Shown: piece after piece, positions 23,054 to 47,698 of the stretch
How positions within the stretch are numbered: the stretch's first letter is position 1
How the letters are laid out: each line of letters begins with the position of its first letter
Source of the DNA: an uncultured Brachyspira sp.
Lineage (GTDB): Bacteria; Spirochaetota; Brachyspiria; Brachyspirales; Brachyspiraceae
Reading direction: 5' to 3'
NCBI RefSeq assembly: GCF_944390845.1
Contig: NZ_CALXRM010000010.1
Coordinates: 1 to 64,000, forward strand
Length of the DNA: 64,000 nucleotides
Program-made: the position numbers and the translations under genes
The notes under the pieces: model-generated
The model's input: only the letters and a program-made list of their open reading frames with translations
Databases searched by the model: none
What the model was told of the DNA's origin: nothing

Positions 23054-24409
23054 TTAATCATTCTCATACACAGCTTTATCAAATATATCATTTTTCTTTA
23101 TATTAGTATTATAATATATGAAGAAAAACAAAATTATTAATATAAATTGTGCTGTCGGTATAGCAAACCATATTCCATCAAGCTTCAAAAATATAGGAAG
23201 CACAACTATACATAGAGGGCTTACAAAAAGCGGATCTATATAAGTTAAAAATGCTGAATACTTACTTTCGCCAGATGAATAAAAATATGCTGTTCCAAGT
23301 CTTACTATAGGCTGAAGTAAAAAAGTTATTGATATTATAAGTAAGCCTGATTTTACAATATTATTTGTTTCTTCTGATGCCCCAAATAATAAGCCTAAAT
23401 TATTTTTAAAAATAAATATTACAGTAATAATTATTAAGCCTAATGAAAATGCAAATAAAATACCTTTTTTCAAAACCTTTCTCATAAGATTATTTTTACC
23501 GGCACCTTTAAAATAACTTATCATAGGCTGACAGCCTTCTGCCACTCCTTCAAATAAATGCAAAATAGAACCAGCTATATAATTTATAACAGAATATGCT
23601 GATGCCCCAATATATCCTCCATACTTTATACATTGCAAATTATTAAAAATTACTATCAAAGAAGGTGCCATCACTAAACCAAAAGGAGATAAACCTATCT
23701 GTATAGCCCTTTTTGTCATTGATAAATTAAAATCTGATAGTTTTATTCTAGTTCTGTTTTTCTTTCTTATAAATAGATAATAAACTGCTATTAAAGCAAC
23801 CAATCCCTGAGCTATTATTGTGGCAAGGGCGGCACCGAACATTCCTAATCTAAAAACCATCAAAAATAAATAATCTAATATAATATTTGTAATAAGCCCT
23901 ACTCCCATAAAACTCATAGCATGAACAGTTTTACCGCAATTTCTTATTATAGGCATGCTTCCAAATGATATTATTTGAAGCGAGCCTCCCAAAATAATAG
24001 TTGTAATATATTCATCAGCATAATCAAATATTTTATCCCTTGCTCCAAGTAAATATATAAGAGGATTTTTTAGTAATAATAAAACAATAGTTAATATTAT
24101 ACTGGCTAATATTAAAGAAATAAAAGTATTCACTTTAGCTTTATTAAATCCTTCAATATCATTTTGCCCAAGATATGTAGACATTATAACAGAGCCCCCC
24201 ATACCAAGCATTACTGCAGTAGCCATGAGCAGAGTACCTATAGGATAAACTAAATTAATTGCAGTAAGCCCAATATCTCCCATAGAATTACCAACGAAGA
24301 AACCGTCTACAACTATATAAAATCCTCCAAGCATTGTTGAAACTATAGCAGGAATAATATATTTGAAAAAAGATTTTTCCATACTTTCTACGCTGCTGAC
24401 TACTGTCAT
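23054..24409 (-). CDS. MATE-family multidrug/metabolite efflux protein
   Basis: The protein (about 451 residues) is a 12-helix antiporter of the MATE superfamily, with the DinF/MepA-like opening YIIPAIVSTMLGGFYIVVDG followed by FFVGNSMGDIGLTAINLVYP. The second half repeats the fold (QPMISYFKGAGK). Such proteins export cationic drugs or metabolites using Na+ or H+ gradients. I set the start at 24409 (MTVVSS), which has AAAGGAG six bases upstream; the upstream 17 codons have no such signal. It is monocistronic. Confidence 0.9.
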   Translation of the reverse strand: MTVVSSVESMEKSFFKYIIPAIVSTMLGGFYIVVDGFFVGNSMGDIGLTAINLVYPIGTLLMATAVMLGMGGSVIMSTYLGQNDIEGFNKAKVNTFISLILASIILTIVLLLLKNPLIYLLGARDKIFDYADEYITTIILGGSLQIISFGSMPIIRNCGKTVHAMSFMGVGLITNIILDYLFLMVFRLGMFGAALATIIAQGLVALIAVYYLFIRKKNRTRIKLSDFNLSMTKRAIQIGLSPFGLVMAPSLIVIFNNLQCIKYGGYIGASAYSVINYIAGSILHLFEGVAEGCQPMISYFKGAGKNNLMRKVLKKGILFAFSLGLIIITVIFIFKNNLGLLFGASEETNNIVKSGLLIISITFLLQPIVRLGTAYFYSSGESKYSAFLTYIDPLFVSPLCIVVLPIFLKLDGIWFAIPTAQFILIILFFFIYYNTNIKKNDIFDKAVYEND

Positions 24410-24526
24410 ATAAAACTCCTTTAATAAAAATTTAGTACGACGGTGGACTATTATATACATGTTTGCTTCTTTGTCAATAGAGAAAGTACGATTTTTTACT
24501 TTTTATTGTTTAGGAGTAATAGATAT

Positions 24527-25550
24527 TGCACACTTTTTAGTTTAAAAAAAGCAGGTATTCCTTATAATTAAATTAGCAAAAAAATAAAAAGGAATACCTA
24601 TGAAACAATATAATACAAATCAGAAAAAAAAGATAGTATTAACTATTAATAAAGCTAAAAATAAAAAAGTTCAGGCTCTCAAATTTAATATTAGCATAAG
24701 AACTTATTACTATTGGAAGAAGAAATTATAAGAAACAGGAACTGTAGAAAATAAGAGTAGGAAACCCAAAAATAGTCCTAATAAGCTTAAAAAGAAAAAG
24801 ATTATTAATAAAGTAATAGAAGTTCGTAAGAAATACAAATATGGTAAGCTAAAAATTAAAAAACTCTTAGAAAAAGAAAATATTACAATAGGCACTACAG
24901 CTATTGAAACAATCTTCAAAGATTATAATCTCTATCAAAATAGAAAGAAGAAAATAAGAAAAAAACATAAAGGAAAGCATGCTATTTATATAAAAGAAGC
25001 GGGGGAAAAGGTACAAACAGATGTAAAATATGCTTTCTTTGGGGAAATACGTTATTATCAATTTACTGCTGTAGATATAGCAACAAGAATGAGCTTTAGA
25101 TATTTATATGCTGAAAAAACACCAGAAAGTACTATTGATTTTACCAAACGTATGCTGAAATATTTTTCTTTTCGTGTTCATTGTATTCAAACAGACAATG
25201 GCACAGAATTCACCTATCGTAAGCATTTTTTTGAAACAGAGCATCCGCTAGATAATTTTTGTAAAAATAAACACATCAAAAGAGTTTATAGCCCAGTTGC
25301 TAGTCCTTGGTATTGCCGCAGGCACGCAGAGCGATGGAGTAGTAGAAAGTACACATAACCGAGACCAAAAAGAATTTTATGACTTTTGTACAAAAGAATT
25401 AACTTTAGAGAAAGCTAATCTAAAACTAAGGAAATATAATAATTTTTGGAATCATAAAAGAATACATTCTAATGCAAAATTATGATACGCCTATGATATA
25501 CTTTAAGAAATTAAGGAATTCCTAAATGCAATATCTATAGCACCTGTGCA
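24527..25550 (+). mobile_element. IS481-like insertion sequence, inactive
   Basis: The ends are TGCACA (24527-24532) and TGTGCA (25545-25550), about 1.02 kb apart, enclosing one damaged DDE transposase gene. An ATAGATATTGCA word also occurs inverted near both ends. The family call rests on the rve integrase core and single-gene layout. A diverged 3' piece of a related copy lies at 26400-26513. Confidence 0.75.
24600..25485 (+). pseudogene. DDE integrase-core transposase with a nonsense codon and a short insertion
   Basis: The ATG at 24600 opens MKQYNTNQKKKIVLTINKAK with an N-terminal helix-turn-helix, but codon 44 is TAA (24729-24731). The same frame continues with the integrase core: first Asp in VQTDVKYAFFGE, second in IQTDNGTEFTYR. 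At about 25311 the frame is lost in the sequence ATTGCCGCAGGCACGCAGAG. It resumes one frame later as DGVVESTHNRDQKEFYDF, which carries the catalytic Glu, and ends at 25485. Removing 19 or 22 bases restores SPW(S)DGVVES. The inserted bases match a module of the dispersed MITE-like elements. Confidence 0.82.
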
Positions 25551-25712
25551 ATAATTTTTATTTTTTAGTAAAGATATATTACTATTTTCAATAAAACTTT
25601 TAAATTTACTAATATTATCCGTTTCATAAAAATTCATTTTTATGAAAATAAATTTGACTTCTAATATAAAAATATTATATTTAAGACATATAAAAAATAA
25701 AGGAAATAAAAA

Positions 25713-26306
25713 ATGAAAATAAAAATATTTTTAATTATAATGATAATTCTATTTGCGGCATCATGTACCAAAAATAACCCTGCTAATCCTCTTCAAAATA
25801 CTGATAATGTAACAAAAAATAATGCTGATTCAGATAATACTTCTTCTAAGAATGATGGTAACATCAGTGAAAATGTAACAGGAAATAGCACTGATTCAGA
25901 TAATACTTCTTCTAAGAATGATATAAGCAGCAGTGAAAATAAAACTTCAGAACCAAATTTTGAAGATGATGGTTATGTAGAATTTAGAGGAAAAGCAAAA
26001 TCAATTGCTAAAAAATTGGATGGAACAGAACTTACAGAATTTGACCCTGAAAATGTGTATGTTGATATTAATGAAAAAGATAAAAGTGCTGTAGTGAATA
26101 TACCAACTCCTTTTTATTTTAATAATATTAAGTTGGATAATTCTAAACATACATATTATTCAAGTGATTATAGAGGTGAATATACATTAACTATGAAAGT
26201 TGAAAATGATTCTATAACAGAGTTTCAGTTTATAATCTTTGATAAAAGTGAAAATATAAAATATTATTATGAAACTGATAGATTGTATAAACTTCAAAAA
26301 AATTAA
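25713..26306 (+). CDS. Small lipoprotein of unknown function with a duplicated Asp/Ser/Asn-rich segment
   Basis: The 197-residue protein has a lipoprotein signal ending in FAASC (Cys18). Residues about 25-75 form a low-complexity linker containing two copies of DSDNTSSKND, each followed by a SEN triplet, and the DNA is nearly identical over the duplication. The folded part (about 80-197) starts YVEFRGKAKSIAKKLDGTEL and is beta-rich. No family is recognised. It has its own terminator. Confidence 0.75.
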   Translation: MKIKIFLIIMIILFAASCTKNNPANPLQNTDNVTKNNADSDNTSSKNDGNISENVTGNSTDSDNTSSKNDISSSENKTSEPNFEDDGYVEFRGKAKSIAKKLDGTELTEFDPENVYVDINEKDKSAVVNIPTPFYFNNIKLDNSKHTYYSSDYRGEYTLTMKVENDSITEFQFIIFDKSENIKYYYETDRLYKLQKN

Positions 26307-26335
26307 TTATATTAATTATTAACTGAGTAATTTAA

Positions 26336-26370
26336 AATAGGCTTTATATTTTAATTATACAGCCTATTTT
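26336..26370 (+). terminator. Terminator of the small lipoprotein gene
   Basis: AATAGGCT (26336-26343) pairs with AGCCTATT (26361-26368), followed by a T7 run. Confidence 0.8.
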
Positions 26371-26399
26371 TTTATATATTTTTTACATATACCAATATA

Positions 26400-26513
26400 T
26401 GCACAGATGGCATAGATATTGAATTTAAGTATTCCTTAATTTTTTGAAGTAAAAAAACGTTGTATCATAATTTTGCATCAGAATGTATGCGTTTATAGTT
26501 CCAAAAATTGTTA
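26400..26513 (-). mobile_element. 3' remnant of an IS481-like element, interrupted by a MITE
   Basis: Read on the minus strand, this stretch parallels the last 110 or so bases of the insertion sequence at 24527-25550. It contains TTTTTGGAACTATAAACGCA, then GATGCAAAATTATGATAC, then AAAAAATTAAGGAATACTTA and the end CTGTGCA. The residual translation NFWNYKRIHSDAKL matches the NFWNHKRIHSNAKL end of the transposase. It stops at about 26513, where a MITE-like element starts. Confidence 0.75.
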
Positions 26514-26850
26514 TATACTGAAAATGTTTAAGTTTGTCAATTCTTTTATTCAACTTTTTCCCGCCGCATACGCTCTGCGGACTTCGTCAAAGTTGCAAAA
26601 AGTGCAAATATAAAATTAGTGCTAAATCATACTAAAATTGTATTACATGTAAAATAATTTATTACATTTAAGTTTAAATATAGCCTTTCGCGAAGCGTAT
26701 CTGAGCTTGTCGAGGATATAGCTTCTTTGTGGCAATACTTACAGTACTTCCTTCAGTCGCAAAAGAACTGGGGGTGTGGGGGCTAGTCCCCACAAATAAT
26801 AAAAATAATAAAATAATTTTTGACAAAATATATTTGTTTCAGTATATATT
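26512..26850. mobile_element. MITE-like element inserted in an IS remnant
   Basis: It starts TATATACTGAAAATGTTTAA and ends TTTGTTTCAGTATATAT, giving imperfect inverted ends. Its interior reads, on the minus strand, like the elements at 2848 and 47694, but carries extra modules: one around TTTCGCGAAGCGTATC (about 26687), a GACTTCGTC/GCGGACTT module near 26566-26590, and TACTTCCTTCAGTCGC. It has no coding frame. Confidence 0.75.
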
Positions 26851-26880
26851 TAAAATTATTAATATAAGTAGGAAAGAATT

Positions 26881-27336
26881 ATGACTAAATATAATATAAA
26901 ATTTTATTTTTTAATATCAATATTATATATAGTGTCTTCCTCATTTATATTTTTTGATGATGAAAGAAATATTCAGTTTGTACCATATACCTCTCTTCCT
27001 AATAATATTCAGGAATTCGTAAATACATACTTTAACGAATATGAAGTGTATAGTGCTGCAGTATCCACTCATTATATGGTTATTTTTAAAGGCGGTTCAT
27101 CTATAAACTTTAACAGAAAAGGCGAATGGACTTCTATAATAGGAAACAGAAAAATAATACAGATAAGTACAGCTGAAAAATTTATTGACAGTAAAATCAT
27201 GAATATCATAAAAAACAAATATACAAGCATAAATAATATATACAAAAGAAGCAAAGGCTATGAGTTTAAAGTAGATGATGCATACTATATTTATATAGAC
27301 TATAACGGAAATATTTTAAAAATAAAAAAAGCCTAA
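26881..27336 (+). CDS. Secreted PepSY-like (DUF2874-type) protein
   Basis: The 151-residue protein has an N-terminal signal or membrane segment (IKFYFLISILYIVSSSFIFF) and a domain of the putative beta-lactamase-inhibitor-like PepSY-like group. The recognisable pattern is LPNNIQEFVNTYF, then MVIFKGGSSINFNRKGEWTS, then YNGNILKI. These domains are common in gut bacteria and their role is not established. A paralogue without signal peptide lies at 27758, and both share the GGSS(I/V)NF..(K/R)GEWTSIIGN core. Confidence 0.72.
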   Translation: MTKYNIKFYFLISILYIVSSSFIFFDDERNIQFVPYTSLPNNIQEFVNTYFNEYEVYSAAVSTHYMVIFKGGSSINFNRKGEWTSIIGNRKIIQISTAEKFIDSKIMNIIKNKYTSINNIYKRSKGYEFKVDDAYYIYIDYNGNILKIKKA

Positions 27337-47329: not shown

Positions 47330-47698
47330 TATCTACCTAAACAACTATATTTTGTCAATTTTAGTTTTTTCAATTTTATTGTTTGTGGTGGCTTTGCCCA
47401 CCGCTCTGCGTGCCGTAGGCAAGGTACCTTTCGGTATTGGGATAAGGCATAGCCTGCCTTCGGCGAGAACCTATATCCTCGACAGGCTCGGATACGCTTC
47501 GCGAAAGACTGCATTTTTAGGGTATATCCTATATTTAATAGGAAAGTTTTTAATATAAAGTTCTAGCAATTGAGTTTTTCGCATAGCGTATCCGAAGGAT
47601 AAAAACTTTGATGAAGTCCGCAGAGTGTGTGCGGCAAAAAAGTTGATAATATTACATAATGTGCAGTAGTCGGCAAAATGAAATCGTTTCAGTATATA
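47330..47698. mobile_element. MITE-like element with several GC-rich modules
   Basis: It runs from TATCTACCTAAACAACTATA to CGTTTCAGTATATA. Inside are a CTCTGCGTGCCGTAGGCAA module (47404-47422), TCCTCGACAGGCTCGGATAC followed by GCTTCGCGAAA (about 47477-47507), and GATGAAGTCCGCAGAG (about 47610). A frame on the minus strand (47263-47514) is produced by these modules and is not treated as a gene. The CTCTGCGTGCC module is the reverse complement of the insertion in the IS transposase at 25313-25337. Confidence 0.75.

Follow-up and report, generated by a model that had tools for sequence, protein, structure and literature searches.

Inside a decayed transposase gene of an uncultured Brachyspira species, a short GC-rich stretch interrupts the reading frame, and a similar stretch lies some distance away in a different setting. 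Did these bases enter the gene as a unit, and if so, what kind of unit are they and what moves them? We address these questions for the window, a stretch of 64,000 nucleotides of assembled Brachyspira DNA (contig NZ_CALXRM010000010.1, positions 1 to 64,000), through comparison with its own genome, other Brachyspira genomes and genomes from further afield. Ever since GC clusters were described in yeast, double-hairpin elements in Allomyces and SDRs in Nostoc, the movement of elements of 20 to 50 nt has been an open question. Brachyspira, which can be cultivated and sequenced, offers many pairs of filled and empty sites, including near-identical orthologues that differ mainly by such modules.

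An insertion in a transposase gene

The host element is a decayed insertion sequence (IS) of about 1030 bp on the forward strand (24524-25553), whose ends TATTGCACA and TGTGCAATA are evident on direct reading. It carries the remnant of an rve-type (DDE) transposase; the Pfam rve_3/rve domain was found in L209, an intact-site relative reading SPWYNGVVES. Within the remnant, positions 25314-25333 of the forward strand read TGCCGCAGGCACGCAGAGCG: 20 bases that stand where relatives have one A of the transposase gene, a net gain of 19 through which the window transposase loses its reading frame. We searched for the IS in its own genome and in 25 congeners and aligned the copies. The empty-site reading CCTTGGTAT-A-ATGG is present in at least a dozen copies: this genome has four, and congeners contribute no fewer than ten. 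Empty copies show GGTAT-A-ATG or GGTAC-A-ATG on contigs C114, C30, C79 and C48 of this genome and in genomes G005, G008, G012-G015, G017, G022 and G023. The filled form, GGTAT-[20 nt]-ATGG, is found in the window copy, in its G022 and G023 orthologues, and in a second copy on contig C96. At the same IS position, G024 has the remnant TTGCCAGCG and G010 a degenerate relative. Elsewhere in this transposase, other copies are filled at two further sites: L194:1467, and a position some ten codons upstream in L197, L210 and L213.

Judged by these filled and empty copies, 25314-25333 is a genuine insertion. An assembly artefact is unlikely, since three independent assemblies have the same module in the same place. 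It is scarcely credible that the IS had the 20 bases from the start and that the copies lacking them have lost them by deletion. Three genomes do have filled copies, this one on two contigs, but copies lacking the module restore an open rve-domain frame genus-wide, and the same 20-mer turns up in unrelated contexts; the empty copies across the genus led us to reject this origin. The module broke the reading frame of the element, which either was a pseudogene already or became one, and it has no evident function there. It is not the sole cause of the pseudogene state, since this IS is also damaged by an in-frame stop codon (TAA, 24729-24731) and by a shift of the C-terminus near 25480.

The first-pass annotation, made from the letters of the window, had placed a GC-rich module exactly at this frame break, and the relatives confirm the coincidence: their uninterrupted site, GGTATAATGG, translates to SPWYNGVVES. 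It had suggested that removal of 19 or 22 bases would restore the frame; 19 does, because the unit replaces one A, and 22 does not. Its ancestral peptide, SPW(S)DGVVES, was mistaken. The match that it reported between 25313-25337 (TTGCCGCAGGCACGCAGAGCGATGG) and the reverse complement of 47398-47422 (TTGCCTACGGCACGCAGAGCGGTGG), 21 of 25 bases, is exactly as claimed. The second of these loci does lie in a MITE-like repeat, but the word is also present at sites outside MITEs. Both loci read CxRHAERW in the same frame because they share this DNA; as a coding signal the reading falls away, the copy at 47402-47421 being non-coding.

Other traces of the IS include an inverted remnant of its 3' end at 26400-26516 (82% identical), which adjoins a MITE-like repeat, and a rearranged copy (G000:C96:10179-11001) in which the 5' part meets the inverted 3' part at one base. 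The IS had no match among plasmids.

A family of double mini-hairpins

The window module belongs to a large Brachyspira family of GC-rich 20-mers. In a genome of 28% GC, the 13-mer GGCACGCAGAGCG occurs twice in the window, where 0.02 occurrences are expected; the genome holds 29 exact copies and 39 with one mismatch, and the reversed control yields 0. Such counts reject chance similarity among the copies. A known Rfam family is ruled out for 23500-48500, where Rfam at gathering score gives no match.

The anatomy of the module is that of two abutting GC-clamped mini-hairpins: stem 4, loop 3, stem 4, and then stem 3, loop 3, stem 3. The window module, TGCC-GCA-GGCA / CGC-AGA-GCG, has the predicted single-stranded fold ((((...))))(((...))), and single strands are predicted to fold as drawn in most cases. 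Sequence reading and word searches identify a sister module, TGCC-TAC-GGCA / CGC-AGA-GCG, on the reverse strand at 47402-47421. The same MITE-like copy holds a further reverse-strand module at 47446-47465, CGCC-GAA-GGCA / GGC-TAT-GCC, where paralogues have a single A.

Modules are inserted as a unit, with the replacement of one base, sometimes two, and no target-site duplication. We compared 1.8 Mb, and later 2.6 Mb, of Brachyspira DNA all against all for indels. GC-rich indels have a sharp mode at 19 nt: 82 of 286 in the 1.8 Mb, versus 7 of 210 AT-rich indels, a peak that persists in the larger set (76 of 250 versus 7 of 256). Among events of 17-21 nt with gap-free flanks, 56 of 83 obey the rule that one or two bases give way to a 20-nt module. 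Beyond the IS, we collected 30 unique filled contexts with a known empty counterpart. One base was replaced in 20 of these and two in 9, nearly always A/T (T in 10, A in 9, AA in 7, AG in 2, others in 2) and mostly within a short A/T run; a target-site duplication was found in none of the 30.

The fold is equally regular. Perfect 4-3-4/3-3-3 hairpins account for 11 of 21 distinct net +19 events, and two more have one mismatch; the corresponding frequencies in shuffled sequences are 0.1% and 1.8%. When a 9+9 form is allowed and de-duplication is stricter, 11 of 17 are perfect, versus 0.35%. Stems differ among modules by compensatory changes: 99.5% of the stem cells of 27 distinct modules are paired, and double-sided stem changes number 36 cells versus 13.4 +/- 2.5 in shuffles, with 0 of 500 shuffles reaching 36. 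The modules for the covariation count were partly picked by the grammar, so the hairpin tests on net +19 events are the cleaner evidence. Several net insertions of 18-24 nt do not match the 4-3-4/3-3-3 grammar. We infer that structure, not sequence, is what is recognised or copied. The double mini-hairpin and the replacement of one or two bases had been overlooked by the first-pass annotation, as had the placement of most of the polymorphism inside MITE-like repeats, whose copies can also spread modules by exchange, and the occurrence outside Brachyspira described below.

Genomic locations of modules

Modules enter transposase genes, MITE-like repeats, and one gene leader (C31). Counts of perfect modules are 19 for G007 and 17 for G025, each over 800 kb, and 21 for G009 over 400 kb; a Markov control gives 0-1. 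Open frames of at least 150 aa hold about 5 of 60 perfect modules (in about 2.1 Mb) versus 87% of random positions. Polymorphism is concentrated in multi-copy MITE-like repeats, which hold most of the variable sites.

Gene conversion or recombination between MITE copies would account for most presence/absence differences if true insertions were very rare and old. The concentration of polymorphic sites in multi-copy repeats suits such a process, which could move a module without a new insertion, as do the few modules in open frames and the small number of clear low-copy insertions in the 800 kb each of G007 and G025. We hold this to be improbable as the main explanation, though it deserves weight: no donor has a flank homologous to the IS sites, the Rpn-gene sites or the C31 leader, the same site holds different modules in different copies, and purifying selection against frameshifts explains the deficit in genes equally well.

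Coding cases extend beyond the transposase family. In G009, a PD-(D/E)XK Rpn-like gene holds two modules, one of 21 nt in frame and one a perfect 20-nt module; in G025, a fragment of an Rpn-like gene carries a 42-nt in-frame insertion. Translational bypassing of the insert, of the kind known from mitochondrial byp elements, was set aside, as the transposase gene carries other lesions and the Rpn-like gene has its insertion in frame. The proposal of the first-pass annotation that 20-base modules insert on their own is supported. Two things that would speak against it were looked for and neither was found: intact-site IS copies that carry the bases (the four copies in this genome and at least ten copies in congeners lack them), and a want of modules in other coding regions (they occur in the same transposase family and in the Rpn-like genes of G009 and G025). 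The Rpn-like (PDDEXK_2) gene of G009 (contig C2, about 2.329 Mb; L107-L108, joined stretch 339336 and 339671) is chimeric, and its paralogue halves meet exactly at the perfect 20-nt module. A module at the joint of two Rpn paralogue segments is as expected of filler at a repaired break. Modules break or lengthen genes and may serve as filler at rearrangement joints, which makes them a source of small indels that are treated as noise in alignment-based work.

Recent activity and the history of filled sites

The block at 24520-26890 is 99.7% identical to two other Brachyspira genomes, with flanks only 84% identical. From 24520 to 26560, the window differs from G022 and G023 by 5-7 substitutions per approximately 1975 bp; at 24000-24395, the difference is 16%. 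The block appears to stem from recent transfer or recombination.

Downstream of the IS lies a MITE-like repeat (26533-26827, ends TTTGTCAA and TTGACAAA), recognised by sequence reading and copy comparison, which is host to several module sites. Within 230 bp of it, the trio of window, G022 and G023 shows four module-sized events. At 26569-26588, on the reverse strand, the window alone has the module GAC-GAA-GTC / CGC-AGA-GCG+TA, where the near-identical orthologues have a single A. Near 26600, G023 alone is filled, as it is at 26780. At 26736-26759, on the forward strand, the window alone carries a 24-nt insertion of a longer GC-rich class that is missing from the G022 and G023 orthologues. 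Because near-identical orthologues differ by four module events, the process is recent, and its insertions are still polymorphic. The same repeat has a 30-nt GC-rich module on the forward strand (26689-26718; CGC-GAA-GCG plus a longer hairpin) that is missing in other copies of the repeat.

The history of the IS site is less simple. The filled copy on C96 is 92.5-95.5% identical to the empty copies of its own sublineage versus 88.6% to the C10 copy, also filled. A tree that unites the filled copies in one group has a p-AU of 0.067, or 0.020 with the G024 remnant added. A single origin of the filled state is therefore disfavoured but not rejected, which leaves room for separate insertions at one site, for gene conversion over small tracts and for loss; the presence of one module at this IS site in two sublineages could also reflect an old, shared state.

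Repeats of other kinds were also observed. At 25824-25890, a 66-bp repeat copy lies in a lipoprotein-like gene (25713-26306) and is absent from the G022 and G023 orthologues. In L174 and L190 (G006 and G004), a different repeat family (CCTACAT ... TAGTAGGGTATCGAGAC) carries the module in several copies, about 80-375 bp apart; these could be cassette-like arrays of the attC-like sort.

Candidate mechanisms

The replacement of one or two bases, the fixed length of 20 nt and the fold place concrete constraints on mechanism. The favoured reading, which we regard as probable, is that 25314-25333 belongs to a family of mobile 20-nt modules that are non-autonomous and are moved by host replication or repair. 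The filling of a nick, a gap or a broken end within an A/T run would bring in a folded single strand, either copied or captured; this would cost one or two bases at the target, and exchange between copies of MITE-like repeats would then spread the modules. Support comes from the comparison of sequences, from which the insertion events are deduced. The route through host functions is suggested by the joint lack of a Y1/RAYT transposase in the genus and of a reverse transcriptase in most carriers. PF01797 (Y1/RAYT transposase) has no match in any of the 26 Brachyspira genomes, against matches in 5 of 14 controls, on which ground mobilisation of the RAYT/IS200 type is rejected. The replication-strand bias expected of a lagging-strand process was not significant (35 versus 24, p = 0.19). 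A phage carrier was likewise set aside: a scan of IMG/VR gave two matches, both in GC-rich, coding-looking sequence free of repeat context, and we take them as chance.

A dedicated transposase or recombinase that has escaped recognition, perhaps from the IS, the MITE parent or an Rpn-like nuclease, would mean that a 20-nt element moves by true DNA transposition. Enzymes typically give a fixed unit length, precise ends and targets that recur, and the module-bearing coding genes found are transposase or Rpn-like genes. Such genes may simply tolerate insertions; the genus has no Y1 transposase, target duplication is absent, and stem sequences vary so much that the fold alone is common. We think a dedicated enzyme unlikely, to about the same degree as the recombination between MITE copies discussed above.

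Copying through RNA, in which a small hairpin transcript is reverse transcribed into a nick, has been proposed for Allomyces and suspected for yeast GC clusters. For Allomyces, the case was argued from the missing target duplication (PMC2800124), and hairpins would make stable RNAs. RVT_1 (reverse transcriptase) is found in 7 of 26 Brachyspira genomes; it has no match in the window's own genome, where an undetected reverse transcriptase family is possible, or in the module-rich G006, G008, G009 and G010. With most carriers lacking RVT_1, we rejected mobilisation by reverse transcriptase and give the RNA route little credence.

Relation to known elements

The literature searched holds no earlier description of such repeats in Brachyspira. 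We regard the module as a very small mobile hairpin element akin to SDRs, the Allomyces elements and GC clusters, and not to REP/RAYT; it is among the smallest mobile DNA units so far.

The SDRs (small dispersed repeats) of Nostoc and its relatives, which Elhai and co-workers treated in 2008, are reportedly dispersed units of about 20-27 nt, structured with compensatory changes, and are said to be nested, to occur inside minitransposons and to be mobile by a mechanism not known. The Brachyspira module is likewise a dispersed unit of 20-30 nt whose fold is kept by compensatory changes, with precise insertion and known empty sites. It differs in belonging to another phylum, in replacing one or two bases, and in its explicit 4-3-4/3-3-3 double hairpin, SDRs being compared here by description and not by sequence. 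Its target, a short A/T run, is not an octamer; SDR5 inserts precisely within the octamer HIP1 (PMC4390886).

The mitochondrial double-hairpin elements of Allomyces and the repetitive hairpin elements (RHE) of sponge mitochondria have units longer than 20 nt. Like them, the module consists of two adjacent hairpins inserted without flanking duplication; unlike them, it resides in a bacterial chromosome, is only 20 nt long, and occurs mostly in carriers without a reverse transcriptase, and 20 nt is too short for homology at such distance. The Allomyces elements are short mobile units that occur in genes and spacers and lack a flanking duplication (PMC2800124). Yeast mitochondrial GC clusters are GC-rich and palindromic, have been active recently, merge and shuffle their units, and change the bases beside the insertion (PMC4478555). 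The module shares with them the form of a GC-rich palindromic unit in AT-rich DNA. The clusters compared (GC42, GC18) are longer, GC42 having 42 bp, and are flanked by AG target nucleotides; the module is a fixed 20-nt double hairpin at A/T positions, AG being replaced in only 2 contexts.

In REPs of the GTAG and CGTC superfamilies, one long stem, of 5-13 or 8-9 bp, stands beside the tag of that name, and those of the GTAG kind go with a RAYT (PMC2817692, PMC3733652). The module resembles REPs and REPINs as a small palindromic mobile repeat with compensatory stem changes, but the 27 distinct modules have stems of 4 and 3 bp and no GTAG/CGTC tag, in a genus without Y1. As with MITEs, the module is non-autonomous, and it often rides within a MITE-like repeat; unlike a MITE, it lacks terminal inverted repeats and target duplication and is far below MITE size.

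Range across taxa

The core TGCCNNNGGCACGCAGAGCG is present in 18 of 26 Brachyspira genomes and in 0 of 5 genomes from other genera of the same class. Among the matches listed from a scan of GTDB genomes, repeated hits fall in Brachyspira and a few Chloroflexota/Anaerolineales MAGs, with none in cyanobacteria. Two of the Anaerolineales MAGs have 6 and 5 copies of the core, which is found in none of 149 other genomes of that Chloroflexota class. At the Anaerolineales loci, a perfect 4-3-4 hairpin with other stems precedes 5 of 10 CGCAAAGCG words, where 0.04 are expected; matches to empty sites are weak only. The presence in Anaerolineales of one exact core and of relatives of the same grammar extends both core and grammar to a second phylum, by possible horizontal spread or convergence. 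A wider reading would be an enzyme-independent class of mobile DNA in bacteria, in which any 20-nt 4-3-4/3-3-3 double mini-hairpin is copied by ordinary replication or repair, replaces one or two bases and is shared across phyla; we offer it tentatively, as a good deal less probable than the host-driven movement of the Brachyspira modules.

Double mini-hairpin modules of the same grammar were seen in the Anaerolineales MAGs at L269, L275, L278, L282, L286, L304, L307 and L320. Some lie in ATCCGTG-type or GAAGACACC-type repeat contexts, and some sit in the loop of longer perfect hairpins, for example gtgcacttc[CGCCGGAGGCGCGCAAAGCG]gaagtgcac.
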